A stretch of 64,000 nt of DNA from Gemmatimonadaceae bacterium (lineage in GTDB: Bacteria; Gemmatimonadota; Gemmatimonadetes; Gemmatimonadales; Gemmatimonadaceae). The translations under genes and the position numbers were made by a program. The stretch covers positions 310,001 through 374,000 of the forward strand of contig JAHBVS010000002.1 in NCBI GenBank assembly GCA_019637445.1, given 5' to 3'. The notes under the pieces are model-generated. The model was not told the DNA's origin, ran no database searches, and saw only the letters and a list, made by a program, of their open reading frames with translations. How positions within the stretch are numbered: position 1 is the first letter of the stretch; each line of letters begins with the position of its first letter. Shown one piece after another: positions 11,813-62,574 of this stretch.

Positions 11813-11830
11813 GCTACAACTGAAGTCGTA

Positions 11831-11889
11831 AGTTGTGAGTCATGAGTCGTGAGGAACGACTCACAACTCACGACTCATGACTCACCACT
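11831..11889. repeat. heptad-repeat hairpin, copy 1 of the ACTYAYN family
   Basis: Between the ArsR-methyltransferase gene and ahcY. The left arm is a run of 7-nt units of form NRTRAGT (CGTAAGT, TGTGAGT, CATGAGT, CGTGAGG); the right arm carries the complementary units ACTCACA, ACTCACG, ACTCATG, ACTCACC. A 19-bp perfect pairing joins 11835-11853 to 11867-11885, offset by one unit, leaving a 13-nt loop. There is no T-run. A related AACTGAAGT motif lies just left and CCCGCATCC just right (about 11913), both shared with the copies near 57.5 and 60.7 kb. Confidence 0.85.
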
Positions 11890-11929
11890 GCCGTTATCGC
11901 TCTTCCATCACCCCGCATCCGAGTCGCCA

Positions 11930-13447
11930 ATGACCGCCATCGCTCCCAACGCCCACGCCTTCGACGCCGCCAAGTCCGCCGGCCGCGAGCCGTTCAAGGT
12001 CGCCGACATCTCCCTCGCCCCCTGGGGCCGCCAGGAGATCCGTCTCGCCGAGTATGAGATGCCGGGCCTGATGGCCCTGCGCGCCGAGTACAAGGGCAAG
12101 AAGCCGCTCGCCGGTGCCCGCATCATGGGCTCGCTGCACATGACCATCCAGACGGCCGTGCTGATCGAGACCCTGACCGAACTCGGCGCCGACGTGCGCT
12201 GGGTGAGCTGCAACATCTTCTCGACGCAGGACCACGCTGCCGCCGCCGTGGTGGTCGGCAAGGATGGGTCGGTCGAGCAGCCGCGCGGTACGCCGGTGTT
12301 CGCCTGGAAGGGCGAGACGCTCGAGGAGTACTGGTGGTGCACGGACCAGGCACTGCTGTGGCCGGACGGCCAGGGCCCGAACCTCATCCTCGATGACGGT
12401 GGCGACGCCACGCTGCTCATCCACAAGGGCACCGAGTACGAAGCCGCGGGCAAGATCCCGGCCTTCGACGCGGCCAACGAGCCCGAGGAGTGGGGCGTGA
12501 TCCTCGACCTCCTGCGCAAGACGCACAAGGAGGACCCGAAGCGCTGGACCAACGTCGGCAAGGCGATCAAGGGCGTCTCGGAGGAGACGACGACCGGCGT
12601 GCACCGCCTCTATGAGATGATGCAGGCGGGCACGCTGCTGTTCCCGGCCATCAACGTGAACGACTCGGTCACCAAGTCGAAGTTCGACAATCTCTACGGC
12701 TGCCGGCACTCGCTGACCGACGGCATCCTCCGCGCCTCGGACGTGATGCTCGCCGGCAAGGTCGCCGTCGTGCTCGGCTACGGCGACGTGGGCAAGGGCT
12801 CGGCGCAGGCCTTCAAGGGCCAGGGCGCGCGCGTCGTGATCGTCGAGATCGACCCCATCTGCGCGCTGCAGGCGGCGATGGAAGGCTACCAGGTCGCCAC
12901 GCTCGATGACGTGGTGAGCACCGCCGACATCTTCATCACTGCCACGGGCAACGCGGACATCATCACCGCGGCGCACATGGCGAAGATGAAGGACAAGGCC
13001 ATCGTCGGGAACATCGGCCACTTCGACAACGAGATCGACATGGCCGGTCTCAAGAAGATGGCGGGCGTCAAGCGCAACAACATCAAGCCGCAGTTCGACG
13101 AGTGGATCTTCCCGGACGGCCACTCGGTGCTGATCCTGGCCGAAGGCCGCCTGCTCAACCTCGGCTGCGCCACGGGCCACCCGTCGTTCGTGATGAGCTG
13201 CTCGTTCACCAACCAGGTGGTGGCGCAGGTCGACCTGCACCTCGCCGCGCAGGGCAAGGAGACGGTGTCGGGCACCAAGTACGACGCCAAGAAGGTCTAC
13301 GTGCTGCCCAAGAAGCTCGACGAGAAGGTGGCGCGCCTGCACCTCGACAAGCTGGGTGTGAAGCTGACGAAGCTCACGGAGAAGCAGGCGGCGTACATCG
13401 GCGTGCCGGTGGATGGGCCGTATAAGTCGGACCACTACCGGTACTAG
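11930..13447 (+). CDS. ahcY: adenosylhomocysteinase (S-adenosyl-L-homocysteine hydrolase)
   Basis: A 505-residue NAD-dependent enzyme that splits S-adenosylhomocysteine into homocysteine and adenosine, relieving product inhibition of methyltransferases. Signatures include [14 protein letters not shown], the substrate-binding DDGGD segment, [21 protein letters not shown], the NAD loop [22 protein letters not shown], and C-terminal KSDHYRY that closes the partner active site. It has the long insert typical of bacterial enzymes. It starts at ATG 11930, about 45 nt after the heptad hairpin. The preceding ArsR-methyltransferase is probably its regulator. A compound hairpin follows the stop. Confidence 0.97.
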
Positions 13448-13555
13448 GACGAAGGTTGTAGGACGAAGGACGGAAGTGAACGGCGGCGCGAGTCCAAGGA
13501 TTCGCGCCGCCGTTTGCCGTTTGCTTCCGTCCTTCGTCCTCCGCCCTCCGTCCTC
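13448..13555. repeat. compound hairpin of 7-nt units between convergent ahcY and propeller gene (probable two-way terminator)
   Basis: Outer stem of 17 perfect base pairs (13460-13476 with 13524-13540), built from 7-nt units: AGGACGA/AGGACGG on the left, and TTCGTCC, TCCGCCC, TCCGTCC on the right. Inside lies a second, GC-rich perfect 11-bp stem (13481-13491 with 13502-13512). It fills the whole gap between the ahcY stop and the stop of the convergent minus-strand gene, so it can fold on either transcript. It shares architecture, not sequence, with the ACTYAYN copies. Confidence 0.8.
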
Positions 13556-56566: not shown

Positions 56567-57089
56567 TGGTCTTGCCCTCCAGGGGCCAGTGTTCGCTGCG
56601 GCACTTGGCCGGCGTGGTGAATGCCAGCAGCCCGAACATCGCGTAGAGGATCCGCGTGCCGAGGGCCGGCTTGCCCGTCTCGACGATCTGCTTGAGCGTG
56701 TTCACGATGAAGTCGCCGCCGCGGGTCATGTCCTTGGCGGTCTTGGTGCCGACGGGCACGTCCTCGGAGATCAGCGTGAACTCCACGCCACCGGCGACCT
56801 CCTTCAGTTCGTAGGTCACCTTGCAGTAGGGGTCGTCGTGCGCGGTGAACTTCATCGTGTGCGAGAAGCGGTGCGGGGGCGTGACCTCGAGGATCTCGCC
56901 GACCACGGACGTGAACTTCGCGTCCGGCGTGCGCATCTGCACCGGCGAGCCCGCGCTCAGCGCGCGGTAGCGCATCTGCGCGCCGAAGAACGCGAGTTGT
57001 GGCGTGTCGGTCTTGGTGATCTCACGCCAGACGTCGTCGATCTTTCCGCGAATCACGACGCGCGACACGAGCTTGACGGTCTCCGCCAT
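56559..57089 (-). CDS. SRPBCC/AHSA1 family protein
   Basis: A 176-residue START-like fold: SRVVIRGKIDDVWREITKTDTP at the start, then VVGEILEVTPPHRFSHTMKF, CKVTYELKEVAGGVEFTLISEDV and a C-terminal helix (FIVNTLKQIVETG). Proteins of this type are very often paired with an ArsR regulator, as here. They bind small hydrophobic ligands or act as Aha1-like cochaperones. The ATG has AGGGGG 5 nt upstream, inside the ArsR gene, so the 68-bp overlap between the two frames seems real. Confidence 0.85.
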   Translation of the reverse strand: MAETVKLVSRVVIRGKIDDVWREITKTDTPQLAFFGAQMRYRALSAGSPVQMRTPDAKFTSVVGEILEVTPPHRFSHTMKFTAHDDPYCKVTYELKEVAGGVEFTLISEDVPVGTKTAKDMTRGGDFIVNTLKQIVETGKPALGTRILYAMFGLLAFTTPAKCRSEHWPLEGKTNG

Positions 57090-57456
57090 CCGATCCCCCT
57101 TGGGTCTCTGCAGGTTGTGGGTGTTCGATTGCGTACTTCACGTCCGCCATCTTGCTGCCCCAGAAGCCGCCGTACTCGGTGGTCCAGCGGTCGTAGATGA
57201 GCTGGATGGGGACGGGGTTGTGGAAGAGCTGGCGGACGCGGCCTTCCTTGAGCGAGATGACCAGGCCGCTGTCCTCGAGGATGCGCAGATGGTGCATCAC
57301 GGCGACGCGGGTGGTGTCGAAATGGCCCGCGAGCTCGCCGACGCTGATGCCTGGGGTCAGGCGCAGCAGGTCGAGGATCTGTCGACGCGTGGAGTTGCCC
57401 AGGGCGTCGAAGACTTCGGCCATGTCGTCGAGGGTGGAGGCGGGCTGGTCTCGCAT
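57022..57456 (-). CDS. ArsR-family transcriptional regulator
   Basis: A 144-residue winged-helix protein: VFDALGNSTRRQILDLLRL, ISVGELAGHFDTTRVAVMHHLRILEDSGLV and the wing KEGRVRQLFHNP, followed by IYDRWTTEYGGFWGSK. No Cys metal site, as usual in the SRPBCC-linked branch. The last about 25 residues overlap the SRPBCC gene in another frame and are highly charged. A 9-bp inverted repeat with a 12-nt spacer covers the start codon. A TATTTT box and a TTGCGC box 16 bp apart predict a leaderless transcript. Confidence 0.88.
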   Translation of the reverse strand: MRDQPASTLDDMAEVFDALGNSTRRQILDLLRLTPGISVGELAGHFDTTRVAVMHHLRILEDSGLVISLKEGRVRQLFHNPVPIQLIYDRWTTEYGGFWGSKMADVKYAIEHPQPAETQGGSDGGDRQARVARRDSRKDRRRLA

Positions 57457-57481
57457 ATGTAAGAAAATATTGACATATGCG
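57452..57481. promoter_or_regulatory. operator over the ArsR start codon
   Basis: CGCATATGT (57452-57460) and ACATATGCG (57473-57481) are perfect inverted 9-mers around a 12-bp AT-rich spacer that contains the minus-strand -10 TATTTT (57468-57463). The ATG (57456-57454) is inside the left arm. Bound repressor would block both polymerase and initiation, fitting autorepression of the three-gene operon. Confidence 0.75.
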
Positions 57482-57526
57482 GGATGCGCAAGGGGGCTGA
57501 GGGATGCGGGGGAACGGCGGTCGTGA

Positions 57527-57617
57527 GTTGTGAGTCGTGAGTTGTGAGTAAAAGGCGGATGCGGGTCACTGCGCAGCCCGCATCCTCACTCACTACTCAC
57601 AACTCATAACTCACAAC
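57527..57617. repeat. heptad-repeat hairpin, copy 2 of the ACTYAYN family
   Basis: Between the ADOP permease gene and the ArsR gene. The outer stem pairs 57527-57550 with 57594-57617 (24 nt, two mismatches), each arm holding three to four 7-nt units (TGTGAGT and CGTGAGT on the left; ACTCACA and ACTCATA on the right). An inner perfect 9-bp stem, GGATGCGGG (57557-57565) with CCCGCATCC (57577-57585), closes an 11-nt loop. CTGCAGTTG follows the right arm. Three flanking GGGATGCG words lie at 57481-57510. Confidence 0.88.
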
Positions 57618-57650
57618 TGCAGTTGTCAGGCTAGATCCAGCGGCGTCCGC

Positions 57651-60278
57651 CTAACCCGCCCGCAGTGCCCGCATTGGACTCACCCGCGTGGCCCGGGATG
57701 CAGGGATCCACGAGGCCAGCACCGCCACCAATAGGATGGCTGCGGCGACCGCAGCGACGGTGAGCGGGTCGCGCGGGGCGACGCCGAACGCGAAACGGCT
57801 CAGCACCCGCGAGGCGGCGAGGAAGGCGACAATGCCGATCGCTGCGCCGACGGCGGCGAGGCGCAGGCCTTCGGCCAAGAGCATCCGTCGAACGCGCGCG
57901 GGCAGCGCGCCGAGTGCAAGGCGGACACCGATCTCGTGCTGGCGGGCGCCGACGACCTGCATCAGCTGGCCGAAGAGGCCGAGCATCGTGAGCACGACGG
58001 CGACCACGGCGAAGGTGGCCAACAACATCAGTGAGAAGCGGCGCGGCAGTGAGGCGGCGCGCTGCAGTGATTCCAGCGTGACGGACTCGTTGCTTGGTAC
58101 GGGGCCGAGTTCCTGCTCCATCGCCTCGGAGACTGCGGCGAGCGCCGCGCCGCCGCGCGTGGCGCCGCGCGCGATCACGAACACGCTGGCCGTCGGCGAC
58201 TGCGCGTGTGGCACATACACGGCCGGTCTGCCCGCTGTCTCCATCGAGGTATAGCGCAGGTCGGGCACCACGCCGACAACTCGTCGCGCTGCCGCATTGG
58301 CCGGGCTGTTGCCGATCAACAGCGTCTGGCCGACTGGGTCCAAGTCGCCGAAGTAGCGGCGGGCCGCCGCCGCCGAGATCACGGCGACCGGTTCGCCGCT
58401 CAAGCCGTCGAACTCATTGAACACGCGGCCCTGCAGCGCCGGCACGCGCAGCGCATCGAAGAATCCCGGGCTCGCGACGACGGCGTACAGCTGCTGTCCG
58501 TCGTCGAATCCGGGGCGCTGCACGAAGGCTTCGGTGGAGCCGATCTCAGCCGCCAAGGGCAGCGACGAGGCCACGCCAGCCGCCGCGATGCCGGGCGTCT
58601 GCTTCAGGCGCGACTCCATCGCCCGGCCGGCGGCCTCACGCTCGGCGTCGCTGCGGCGCAGATGCCAGAAGTGTTGCTCCACGCCGACCACGCCGCTCGC
58701 ATCGTAGCCCTGCTCGGTGGCCATCAACTGCGACCAGGAGCGCAGCAGCAGGCCGCCCGAGCAGAGCAGCGTCACCGAGATGGCGATCTGCGCAGCGGTG
58801 AGCACGGTGCGCAGCCGCCGCCCGCCGCGCGAGGAGGCGTCGGAGCCGCCGCGTAATGCGTCGTGCAGGTCGCGGGCCGCGAAACGAATTGGTGTGATTC
58901 CCAGTACCAGTGTCACCGCGACGGTGACGCCGATGCCAAGCCAGACTGAACGCGCGTCCACGCCGAGCTCGGCAAGGCGTGGCACGGAGGATGGCACCCA
59001 GCCGCGCAGCAGCTGCAGGCCGACGGCGCCAAGTGCGAGTCCCAGCGCGCCAGCCGCGGCGCCCAGCAGCGCCGACTCGGCGAGCAGCTGCCGCGTGATG
59101 CGCGTGAGGCCGGCGCCGACGGCGGCGCGCACCGCGAGTTCGCGCGCGCGGCCCATCGTGTCGGAGAGTAGGAGCCCCGACGCGTTGGCCACGGCCAGCG
59201 TCAGCAGCAAGAGTGCGCCGACACCCAGCAGCAGGAGCGCGGGCCGCACGCCGCCAAGCACGGACGCGTCGAGGCGTTCAACGATGAGTGTCCGTGTGCC
59301 GGCACTCGGTGGCGCGAGCGCGTCGCTGCGTTGTGCCAGTGTCGTGAGCTCGGCGACGCCGGTCTCGTATGCGACGCCCTCCTTGAGCCGCCCGAACGCG
59401 GACCAGAAGTCCGCGACACGGTTTTCCCGGGCGTTGCCCACGGGGATGATGGGCACGAAGAAGTCGCGGCCGTCGAGCAACGGAAAGTCCTGCGGCAGCA
59501 CCCCGACGATGGTCATCGGTGTGCCATTGAAGCGCTGGCTGCCGCCGATGGACTCGGGTCGGCCACCGAGGTGCCGCTGGAAGAAGTCGAACGACACCAC
59601 GATGCTGGGATCGCTGCCGGCGACGAAGTCGCGGGCCTCGAGCAGTCGCCCGCGATGCGGCTGTGTGCGCAGCGCGTCGAAGTACGACCGGGTCACGCGC
59701 CAGGTGCCGATGTTGAGCAGCTCGCCGTCGCGTTCGATCTCGAGGCTGTAGGGCTGCGCCGCGGCGATGGCTGCGAAGCTGCGACTGCCCTCGGCGAGAT
59801 CGAGCGCCGTGCCCACTGCGAGGCCGTTGCGCAGCTCGGCGTTCCGCGGATCGCCGCGCCAGAGCGTGACCAGACGGTCCGGCGCCTCGAGCGGCAGCGG
59901 CCGCAGCAGGATGCGATCCACCGCGCCACCGAAAGCCACGAAGGTGCCGATTCCGAGTGCCAGCGCGGCAACGGCGGCCGTGGCGAGCACCGGATGCCGC
60001 CGCATCCGCCGGCCGGCGAAGCGCAGGTCCATCACGAAGTCGTGCAGGGCGCCGAGTGCGCGGCGTTTGCGGCGGTCGGCCTGGGCGTACCCGAGCAGGT
60101 CGGTCTCGAGTGCCTCGCGATCGCCCATCCGCGCGGCCACCCGCTCCGCGACTTCATCCTGCGGCACGCCGGCGCGTTCGAGGTCTTCCTGCGCGAAGGC
60201 TTGGTGCGCGTCGAGTTCCTCGCGGATCTCCTTGCGCAGCTCGTCGTCGGACGGGAAGGGGAGTTGGAAGTCCGACAT
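57651..60278 (-). CDS. ADOP-type ABC transporter permease (MacB/FtsX fold, duplicated)
   Basis: An 875-residue inner-membrane protein of the acidobacterial duplicated orphan permease type. A cytosolic helical N-terminal domain (about 1-85; ELRKEIREELDAHQAF, VAARMGDREALE) is followed by two MacB-like halves, each with a large periplasmic domain and FtsX helices: GRRMRRHPVLATAAVAALALGIG, FSSAFGRLKEGV-like region, LAVRAAVGAGLTRITRQLL, and in the second half LRTVLTAAQIAISVTLL and IGVRLALGALPARVRRML, ending SPMRALRAG. It lacks an ATPase in cis, hence orphan. The PadR gene lies directly upstream, the usual pairing. Substrates are unknown; export or efflux is likely. Confidence 0.92.
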   Translation of the reverse strand: MSDFQLPFPSDDELRKEIREELDAHQAFAQEDLERAGVPQDEVAERVAARMGDREALETDLLGYAQADRRKRRALGALHDFVMDLRFAGRRMRRHPVLATAAVAALALGIGTFVAFGGAVDRILLRPLPLEAPDRLVTLWRGDPRNAELRNGLAVGTALDLAEGSRSFAAIAAAQPYSLEIERDGELLNIGTWRVTRSYFDALRTQPHRGRLLEARDFVAGSDPSIVVSFDFFQRHLGGRPESIGGSQRFNGTPMTIVGVLPQDFPLLDGRDFFVPIIPVGNARENRVADFWSAFGRLKEGVAYETGVAELTTLAQRSDALAPPSAGTRTLIVERLDASVLGGVRPALLLLGVGALLLLTLAVANASGLLLSDTMGRARELAVRAAVGAGLTRITRQLLAESALLGAAAGALGLALGAVGLQLLRGWVPSSVPRLAELGVDARSVWLGIGVTVAVTLVLGITPIRFAARDLHDALRGGSDASSRGGRRLRTVLTAAQIAISVTLLCSGGLLLRSWSQLMATEQGYDASGVVGVEQHFWHLRRSDAEREAAGRAMESRLKQTPGIAAAGVASSLPLAAEIGSTEAFVQRPGFDDGQQLYAVVASPGFFDALRVPALQGRVFNEFDGLSGEPVAVISAAAARRYFGDLDPVGQTLLIGNSPANAAARRVVGVVPDLRYTSMETAGRPAVYVPHAQSPTASVFVIARGATRGGAALAAVSEAMEQELGPVPSNESVTLESLQRAASLPRRFSLMLLATFAVVAVVLTMLGLFGQLMQVVGARQHEIGVRLALGALPARVRRMLLAEGLRLAAVGAAIGIVAFLAASRVLSRFAFGVAPRDPLTVAAVAAAILLVAVLASWIPASRATRVSPMRALRAG

Positions 60279-60281
60279 CGC

Positions 60282-60614
60282 TCAGGGGGTCTCGAGCATC
60301 AGGGAGACGGCGGCCGCATAGCGACGCCAGGATGCGACCTCGGCGGCGAGCCGCGAGCGGCCAACGCTGGTGAGCTTGTAGTAGCGGGCGCGGCGGCCGT
60401 TGTCTGACACGCCCCACTCGGCGGAGAGCGCGCCGGCGCGGACGAGGCGATGCAGGGCCTGGTAGAGCGCGCCGTCCTCGATCCTGAGGTCGCCGGCGGT
60501 GCGCTCTTCGATGCGCTTGCCGATGCCGTAGCCGTGTTCCTTCTGCCAGGAGACGGCTTTGAGGATGAGGAGGTCGAGTGTTCCTGGAACGACGGTCAGT
60601 GCGGGCTTGGGCAT
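60282..60614 (-). CDS. PadR-family transcriptional regulator
   Basis: A 110-residue winged-helix protein of the short PadR type: LTVVPGTLDLLILKAVSWQKEHGYGIGKRIEE, LRIEDGALYQALHRLVRAGALSAEWGVSDNGRRARYYKLT, SRLAAEVASWRRYAAAVSLML. It is followed 3 bp later by the ADOP permease, a very frequent pair in Acidobacteria and Gemmatimonadota, so it is its likely regulator. An AGGGG ribosome site precedes the ATG, and two direct CTCAGGG copies (about 60620-60643) upstream may be its operator. Confidence 0.92.
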   Translation of the reverse strand: MPKPALTVVPGTLDLLILKAVSWQKEHGYGIGKRIEERTAGDLRIEDGALYQALHRLVRAGALSAEWGVSDNGRRARYYKLTSVGRSRLAAEVASWRRYAAAVSLMLETP

Positions 60615-60719
60615 CGGGTCCCCTGAGTGGCTTTCCCTGAGTTAGTGAGGGGAAGGATGCGGGATGCGGAAGGACTTGTCAAATGCTCGGGATTGCTTGC
60701 GCAGATGGGGCTGAGCGGG

Positions 60720-60815
60720 GGATGCGGGTTGAACTGCAGTTGTAAGTCGTGAGTCGTGAGGAGGAGTGCTCCTCCCTCACCACTTACCACTCATGACTCA
60801 CAACTTCCCGTATCC
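60720..60815. repeat. heptad-repeat hairpin, copy 3 of the ACTYAYN family
   Basis: Between PadR and mnmA. Outermost GGATGCGGG (60720-60728) pairs with CCCGTATCC (60807-60815), eight of nine with a G-T. Inside, the left arm has three NRTRAGT units (TGTAAGT, CGTGAGT, CGTGAGG) and the right arm four complementary units (ACTTACC, ACTCATG, ACTCACA preceded by CCTCACC), so one arm has an extra unit. A GAGGAG/CTCCTC stem caps it. AACTGCAGTT (60732-60741) is shared with copy 2. The remaining 60615-60719 has no gene. Confidence 0.88.
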
Positions 60816-60824
60816 GACTGACGC

Positions 60825-61937
60825 TCAGGCCGCCTGGATCGGCAGCAGCCGCTTCCCGGCCGCGATGATCCCGCCGCCGATCACCGCATCCCCGTCGTAG
60901 AGCACGACGCTCTGGCCGGGGGAGATGGCGTACACGGGCTCCTCGAGCGCCACCTCGAACCCGGTCGAGTCCGCGCGGAGCACGGTGCCCGGCACCAGCG
61001 CGGCCCGATGCCGGATGCGGACACCGACAGAAGCGCCAACCTCGGGCGGGCCATCCTGCAACCAGTTCGCCTGCTCGCCAATCACTCCGCGGCCGAGCAG
61101 GTGCTCGCGCGGCCCGATCACCACCGCGCGGTCGGCTGGTCGCAGCGCCACCACGAACATCGGCTCGCTCGCGCCACCCGGCAGCCGCCGCCGCTGGCCA
61201 ATCGTGTAGCGCGCGAACCCATCGTGCTGCCCGACGACCGTGCCATCTACCGTGACAATCGGCCCGGTGCTCAGCGCGGGCGCGTCAACAGGCAGCTCCC
61301 GCTCCAACACCTTCACGTAGTCGCCATCGGGCACGAAGCAGATCTCGTGACTCTCCGGCTTCTCGGCCGTGAGCAGTCCCAACTCGCGGGCCACGGCTCG
61401 CGTCTCCGGCTTCGTCATCGCGCCGACGGGGAGGATCATCCGCGAGAGCACCTCGCGCTCGATGCCCCAGAGGAAATACGTCTGGTCCTTGTTGTCATCC
61501 ACGCCGCGCAGCAGGCGGCCGTCGGCCACGCGCGCGTAGTGTCCGGTGGCGATGAACGGCGCGTCGATGGCGTCGGCCTTGGCCAGCAGGTCGCGGAACT
61601 TGGTGAAGGTGTTGCAGCGCACGCAGGGAATGGGCGTACGGCCCGCCGCATACTCCGCGACGAAGTCGGCGACGACATCCTGCCCAAAGGCGTCCTGCAG
61701 GTTCAGCACGTAGTGTGGGATACCCAGCGACTCGCAGACGCGGCGCGCGTCGTTCACGGAGTCGAGCGAGCAGCAGGGGCGGTCGGGCAGGTCGCCGCCG
61801 TCCTTGAACAGCTTCATCGTCACGCCCACCACGTCGTAGCCCTCGCGCACGAGCAGGGCAGCGGCGACTGACGAGTCGACGCCGCCGCTCATCGCGGCGA
61901 GTACACGGGGCTTGGTGGCGGGGCTGCTGGCGGGCAT
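60825..61937 (-). CDS. mnmA: tRNA-specific 2-thiouridylase MnmA
   Basis: A 370-residue enzyme that thiolates U34 of Lys, Glu and Gln tRNAs. The PP-loop AMSGGVDSSVAAALL is at residues 15-29. The catalytic Cys are in PIPCVRCNTFTKF and SHEICFVPDGDY. ATGHYARV, KDQTYFLWG and the C-terminal beta-barrel (TIGQRRRLPGG, SPGQSVVLYDGDAVIGGGII) are present. A TATATT box 8 nt before the ATG suggests a near-leaderless message. No iscS is adjacent. Confidence 0.96.
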   Translation of the reverse strand: MPASSPATKPRVLAAMSGGVDSSVAAALLVREGYDVVGVTMKLFKDGGDLPDRPCCSLDSVNDARRVCESLGIPHYVLNLQDAFGQDVVADFVAEYAAGRTPIPCVRCNTFTKFRDLLAKADAIDAPFIATGHYARVADGRLLRGVDDNKDQTYFLWGIEREVLSRMILPVGAMTKPETRAVARELGLLTAEKPESHEICFVPDGDYVKVLERELPVDAPALSTGPIVTVDGTVVGQHDGFARYTIGQRRRLPGGASEPMFVVALRPADRAVVIGPREHLLGRGVIGEQANWLQDGPPEVGASVGVRIRHRAALVPGTVLRADSTGFEVALEEPVYAISPGQSVVLYDGDAVIGGGIIAAGKRLLPIQAA

Positions 61938-61944
61938 CCAGAGA

Positions 61945-61950
61945 AATATA
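61945..61950 (-). promoter_or_regulatory. putative -10 box of mnmA
   Basis: TATATT on the minus strand, ending 7 nt before the ATG (61937). The start would be at about 61938. The gap to the neighbouring outer-membrane protein gene is only 31 bp, so both transcription units are tightly packed. Confidence 0.5.
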
Positions 61951-61968
61951 GAAGGCGCCCGGCGGCCC

Positions 61969-62574
61969 CTAGTACACGGTGAACGCCAGCCCGAACTGGA
62001 TCGCGTTCGGCAGCACCACGATCGGGCTGTTGAAGCTGTTCACCCAGGTCGTTCCGCCAAAGGTCCAGTGATAGTTGGCGTAGGCTGTGAGCGAGTTCTC
62101 CCGCACCGGGAAGTCGTAGCCGATGCCGCTCTGGAACAGAAAGGCGTCGGTCTGCACGATGACCGCGTCATCCTCGGCGATGGCGCGGATGGCGCCGACG
62201 CCGCTCTTGAAGAAGAAGCGCGAGGTGGCGCTGGGATAGCCGATGAGGACGAGGCTCAGCGCCGCCGTGCGCCGATAGATGGGCGGCTCGTTGCCGAGCC
62301 AGCCGCTGAACTCACCGGCAATCACGAGACGGTCGCTGACCGAGCCGCCGAGCTGCAGGTTGCCCGAGAACCCAGTGATGCGGTTCTCGAAGAAGTCGTT
62401 GGTGCAGCCATCGCAGGAGGCGGAGACGGAGGCCGCGCCGCTGCCGACGGAGAAGAAGAAGCCATCGCGCAACGGGCCGTCGCCCGATTGTGCCGTCACG
62501 AGCGACGGTGTAGCGAGCATTGAGAGCGCAAGCAAACACTGCACTCGGCGGAGACGTGGGCGCGAAGCGCGCAT
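61969..62574 (-). CDS. outer-membrane beta-barrel-like protein, unknown
   Basis: A 201-residue protein. ATG 62574 gives a signal peptide (RRVQCLLALSMLATPSLVTAQ). The mature part is glycine-rich amphipathic beta strands (FFFSVGSGAASVSASCDGC, FSGNLQLGGSVSDRLVIAGEFSGWLG, LFQSGIGYDFPV) ending QFGLAFTVY with an aromatic terminus, as in 8-strand barrels of the OmpA/OmpW-like size. Two Cys (SCDGC) could form a small disulfide loop. Function unknown. The gap 62575-62713 holds no gene. Confidence 0.72.
   Translation of the reverse strand: MRASRPRLRRVQCLLALSMLATPSLVTAQSGDGPLRDGFFFSVGSGAASVSASCDGCTNDFFENRITGFSGNLQLGGSVSDRLVIAGEFSGWLGNEPPIYRRTAALSLVLIGYPSATSRFFFKSGVGAIRAIAEDDAVIVQTDAFLFQSGIGYDFPVRENSLTAYANYHWTFGGTTWVNSFNSPIVVLPNAIQFGLAFTVY

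Follow-up and report, generated by a model that had tools for sequence, protein, structure and literature searches.

A dispersed family of heptad-repeat arms at gene ends in a Gemmatimonadaceae genome, spelled differently in related species

The element that lies behind the stop codon of mnmA in the window (the whole stretch of 64,000 nt that was analysed) belongs to a family of arms built from 7-nt units, dispersed over the gene ends of the 3.35-Mb genome that holds the window (G000). In our preferred reading, which we put forward tentatively and to which we give slightly less than an even chance, inverted pairs of such arms make hairpins after stop codons, the sites are inherited, and the word in which the units are spelled is homogenised genome-wide. 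Short repeats between genes tend to be classed as mobile or as junk; a family of this kind would offer a directly testable case of concerted, genome-wide change at scattered sites in bacteria, and perhaps a gene-end signal in a group that has been little studied.

Results

To define the family, tandem pairs of the unit (ACTYAYNACTYAY) were counted. There were 14 such pairs in the window, versus 0 expected from shuffles, and 142 in the G000 genome, versus 2 for the pattern read backwards. Loci were then taken as the listed ones with three consecutive units, plus those with two units from the portion of the genome that the listing covered; one doubtful two-unit match was omitted. About 33 ACTYAYN loci were obtained among the matches listed. 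Of these, 24 were inverted pairs in the usual orientation; the rest comprised single arms, an inside-out pair and a run of 11-12 units. The unit word, ACTYAYN, has C or T at positions 4 and 6 and any base at position 7. A canonical arm is made of four heptads and the end motif ACTGC(A/C)GTT. Counted inward from this motif, units numbered four in 46 out of 58 arms among the matches listed, the other arms having three units (four arms), five (six arms), six (one arm) or eleven (one arm). An ACTGC end was found in 44 of these 58 arms, the commonest forms being ACTGCAGTT and ACTGCCGTT. Spacer length varied between 4 and about 60 nt, and many spacers contained a hairpin of their own.

Several other repeats were noticed along the way. 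A run of 11-12 near-uniform ACTCACG units (L074:2494-2578; G000 C3, about 204,200) has no partner arm and falls off the four-unit rule. A separate short repeat, CGGATGCGGG, occurs between genes and within element spacers (window positions 11912, 26540, 39213 and 57556, and many spacers). Convergent gaps of both G000 and the related genome G005 contain another inverted repeat family with CACAGAG/ACACAGAG units of about 8 nt (L178:14460, L180:10474, L180:11693 and L149:16705), some members of which carry CAGTT or GCAGTT ends.

The features of the window are collected in Table 1. The original prediction had counted the mnmA-side element as a third copy, which is correct for ACTYAYN; a fourth period-7 hairpin in the window is spelled with another word, GGACGRA. 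This second word was also present in three spaced samples of G000 (L170, L178 and L179). Homologues of the ADOP permease scored best in Gemmatirosa plasmids, at 33% identity, which points only weakly to Gemmatimonadota.

Table 1. Positions of the repeat elements, their parts and adjoining genes in the window.
Feature	Position	Strand	Description
Family copy 1, arms 4 + 4	11818..11895		Between ArsR/methyltransferase gene stop and ahcY; z -6.6
Hairpin, period-7 arms, word GGACGRA	13446..13553		Between ahcY and convergent gene; z -12.6
Family copy 2, arms 4 + 4	57513..57624		Near ADOP permease gene stop; z -11.0
PadR-family regulator, downstream	60282..60614	-	Start ~117 nt from element end
Element near mnmA	60732-60811		3 + 4 heptads, word ACTYAYN; forms hairpin
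Left outer end AACTGCAGT	60732..60740	-	ACTGCAGTT end on minus strand; ACTGC end in 44/58 arms
Left arm, three heptads	60741..60761	-	TGTAAGT CGTGAGT CGTGAGG
Inner spacer AGGAGTGCTCCTC	60762..60774		13 nt; from sequence and folding
Right arm, four heptads	60775..60802	+	CCTCACC ACTTACC ACTCATG ACTCACA
Right outer end ACTTCCCGT	60803..60811	+	mnmA stop 13 nt away
mnmA (tRNA 2-thiouridine synthase)	60825..61937	-	NF001138 above cut-off; stop adjoins element

Unit numbers of the mnmA-side element can be read directly: three on the left (60732-60761, end included) and four on the right (60775-60811, end included), as had been noted originally. Because most arms have four units, the left arm of this copy seems to lack one. 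Gain or loss of single units by slippage had been proposed as the source of the imbalance. With unit number held so strongly at four, however, the data do not look like free slippage with drift, and the 3 + 4 state is exceptional; most likely it arose by deletion of one unit and plays no special role. On neither strand did any of 200 dinucleotide shuffles have as low a hairpin energy as this element (z -3.7 and -4.5), and the fold of the element was the weakest among four hairpins folded from the window. The arms do form a hairpin, but even with the added unit set aside their complementarity is incomplete, since bases at position 7 often clash. Likewise, the predicted preponderance of C/T or A/G changes among units holds for the C/T alternation at positions 4 and 6 and breaks down at position 7, where any base is found. 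The element after mnmA was absent from every same-genus relative examined, and the downstream neighbour differs too. This neighbourhood is not conserved, and therefore the comparison of orthologues cannot be made there. In G003 (L088), a different tandem repeat, GAGTCTCGCGTG, of 12 nt, begins at the mnmA stop codon.

Gene boundaries were determined with a simple codon-based gene caller written for the analysis. Over 32 elements, the distance of the arm outer end had a median of 4 nt to the stop codon and of 50 nt to the start, and out of 21 elements located between one stop and one start, 16 were closer to the stop (p = 0.027). Elements fill gaps between convergent genes, where both ends are usually close to stops. 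Five single arms adjoin an ATG at 0-5 nt, the pyrimidine word running into the start codon. The relatives G012 and G005 had 38 and 46 period-7 arrays, respectively, per 100 kb of intergenic DNA, while the figure for coding DNA was about 1. In spaced samples of these two genomes, 400 kb in size, period 7 was the sole strongly enriched intergenic period, all others being low. A spaced sample of G000 revealed only a weak period-7 excess (4 arrays); thus, array density differs among species.

An unselected comparison of G012 and G005, covering 400 kb of each and 73 matched orthologous gaps, was used to assess site sharing within the genus. Six out of seven G012 arm gaps were also armed in G005, versus 4 out of 66 other gaps (p = 8e-6). 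For G000, which entered the synteny test as the window and six loci, several of them picked for holding elements, arm gaps were shared with G005 in 5/5 cases versus 2/19 other gaps (p = 5e-4), and with G012 in 2/6 cases versus 2/17 (same direction, not significant, p = 0.27); the array threshold used fails to pick up some arms that are obvious on inspection. Around three other elements, where synteny is good over 13.7 kb, the closest relatives had period-7 arms at the matching gaps, while two control gaps had none. Four further sites were inspected by eye; a matching picture was obtained at ahcY and, among the three L071 sites, at two or more. A four-unit single arm stays single in G000, G012, G010 and G005. 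In the small relatives G001, G004, G009, G013 and G014, no clear arms were found at most sites examined.

At shared boundaries, the arms of relatives had changed letters in all units, and in both arms where two exist. Three-unit arrays of ACTYAYN numbered 83 in G000 and 2 in G012, those of TCTYACA 17 in G012 and 0 in G000, and those of GACGGAW 94 in G005, 91 in G008 and 0 in G000. By genome, ACTYAYN was common only in G000 and G016, TCTYACA in G012 and G002, and GACGGAW in G005, G008 and G002. On the other strand, the G000 and G012 words have the frame GnnGTRA in common. Position 2 is A in 64 of 81 G012 units, and the T at this position of the frame in G000 is partly a selection artefact of locus picking, a bias of which the genome-wide word counts are free. 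Arrangement varies among species at some sites, ahcY being one, and a mixed array at ahcY in G008, where one GACTTGA unit is followed by GACGGAA units, suggests replacement in place. Site positions are most likely inherited, with the spelling rewritten across each genome.

An exact pattern made up of two units and the end motif did not occur in any of the 394 other genomes that were sampled from the phylum. Distant groups, among them Planctomycetota, Elusimicrobia, Nitrospirota and Caldilineaceae, yielded 17 contigs with this pattern, versus about 4 expected by chance from an arithmetic estimate; several of the matches lie within longer arrays. We regard this occurrence in distant phyla as a lead only. 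ACTYAYN arrays with ACTGC(A/C)GTT ends were seen at eight loci from unrelated phyla (L187, L189, L190, L192, L193, L196, L197 and L201), some of them preceded by GCCGTT as in G000.

The original prediction also invoked a local correction that keeps the two arms of an element paired. Correction of arms against each other would raise matching within elements. At the variable Y positions, matching was 0.670 within elements versus 0.649 between elements (p = 0.22); p was 0.68 when all variable positions were used and 0.13 for the best of three registers. Arms from the same element thus agree with each other no more closely than arms from separate elements do, and local correction is not supported. 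Selection for RNA pairing would favour G-U over A-C mismatches and so give stabler sense folds. No gain in stability of sense over antisense RNA was found for 14 elements of clear direction (p = 0.39), and there is therefore no sign of selection on RNA pairing. With neither effect seen, we conclude that the complementarity of the arms follows from the shared family word. Of the active maintenance that had been expected, some homogenisation survives, acting across the genome and on spelling, not locally and not on unit number. Homogenisation across the genome at inherited gene-end sites is supported.

Discussion

In the model that we prefer, the building block is an arm of about four 7-nt units plus ACTGC(A/C)GTT, usually placed as an inverted pair, which turns the gap behind a stop codon into a long hairpin. 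From their sequence and placement, the elements are probably bidirectional 3'-end hairpins: the structure may serve both strands as a 3' end or gene boundary, either stopping transcription or protecting the mRNA end. A factor that reads the repeated units, or a process that copies them, would spread one spelling through each genome, and single arms beside start codons could use the same reader. Conserved single arms are unable to form a hairpin alone, and hairpin formation may therefore be only part of the function. It is possible, though we are doubtful, that each species has a private 7-nt word at gene ends that are for the most part inherited, and that a trans-acting system, be it a recognising protein or a converting copying process, rewrites all sites in step while four units are kept.

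Sites that are common to species with different words are hard to explain by simple transposition or drift alone. Mobility has nevertheless to be considered, in the form of a non-autonomous, REPIN-like repeat whose arms are copied in by a transposase and for which gene ends are merely where insertions survive. Such a repeat would account for arms that are modular (single, inverted or inside-out), for words that are species-specific, for the arrangement that differs among species at ahcY, and for an mnmA copy without a counterpart in relatives. Set against this are site sharing between species above chance, a single arm that is not a palindrome, and a G000 genome without the Y1 transposase PF01797 (0 matches, while control genomes matched in 5 of 14). 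We consider this origin unlikely. A scan of viral contigs gave 0 matches for the pattern and 0 for the control, and thus speaks neither for nor against spread by viruses.

We hold it improbable, too, that the arrays have no function and reflect a polymerase habit of slipping by 7 nt, combined with template switching in palindromes, wherever coding allows. Conserved end motifs and the conserved number of four units, the position of arrays at gene ends, sites common to several species, and dozens of distant loci that carry one word all argue against it, even though period 7 alone is enriched, the array in G008 is mixed, and heptanucleotides are reported to be the commonest longer simple repeats in prokaryotes, for which polymerase slippage was proposed (Mrazek 2007, as cited in PMC4679880).

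Several single arms lie 0-5 nt from an ATG, like the TAACTGA arrays beside starts (PMC4679880), and one molecule of the cold-shock protein CspB is reported to bind each heptamer (PMC4679880). The units could on these grounds be RNA-level sites for a repeat-binding protein (a cold-shock protein or ribosomal S1) that affects translation or mRNA stability, with the hairpin secondary. Most elements are, however, inverted pairs at stop codons, and the binding specificity of cold-shock proteins is weak, which makes this explanation quite improbable. An uptake-like signal, in which the word marks DNA for import and thereby drives genome-wide spelling, has very little to recommend it beyond the resemblance of the species words to the DUS dialects of Neisseriaceae (PMC3630211), since there are tens of sites versus thousands, the word is near-absent from coding DNA, and units stand in tandem fours.

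A sequence-based literature search found nothing on ACTYAYN-type words in bacteria, and at gathering score the only Rfam 15 match in the window was the bacterial small SRP RNA RF00169 (41508-41603). Known systems resemble the family that we describe to different degrees. Like intrinsic terminators, the elements place a stable hairpin just after a stop codon; unlike them, they have 7-nt periodic arms and a spacer that often holds its own hairpin, and no U-tract follows the stem at copies 2 or 3 (scan of 57000-62000). DNA uptake sequence dialects (PMC3630211) likewise have one spelling per species and kindred spellings in relatives. Uptake sequences, however, number in the hundreds to thousands and occur inside genes as well; membership among them was rejected, as there are here 142 unit pairs at about 33 loci, and period-7 arrays are rare in coding DNA.

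REP and REPIN sequences with their RAYT transposase, a Y1 enzyme (PMC3116915, PMC3733652), are also short, dispersed and extragenic, form inverted doublet hairpins, singlets and clusters, and come in species-specific types. The elements described here differ in having tandem heptad arms that are not palindromic alone and sites that are common to species. They were not assigned to this class: PF01797 is missing from G000, and a REP repeat is a self-palindrome with a GTAG or CGTC tag, whereas the arms are direct heptad arrays, palindromic only when paired.

The closest published case is that of the TAACTGA heptamer direct repeats of Beggiatoaceae, Cyanobacteria and Bacteroidetes (MacGregor 2015, PMC4679880). 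These are also tandem 7-nt units with few copies per set, intergenic near starts or stops, and patchy over phyla; read in register, TAACTGA becomes ACTGATA, which is close to ACTYAYN. It is not the same unit, the ACTGATA register having G at position 4. TAACTGA sets are direct and mostly precede start codons, with one inverted case among 170 (PMC4679880), while the arrays studied here are mostly inverted pairs at stops (24 among about 33 loci listed), with four-unit arms that end in a fixed motif, and with words that differ between related species at matching sites.
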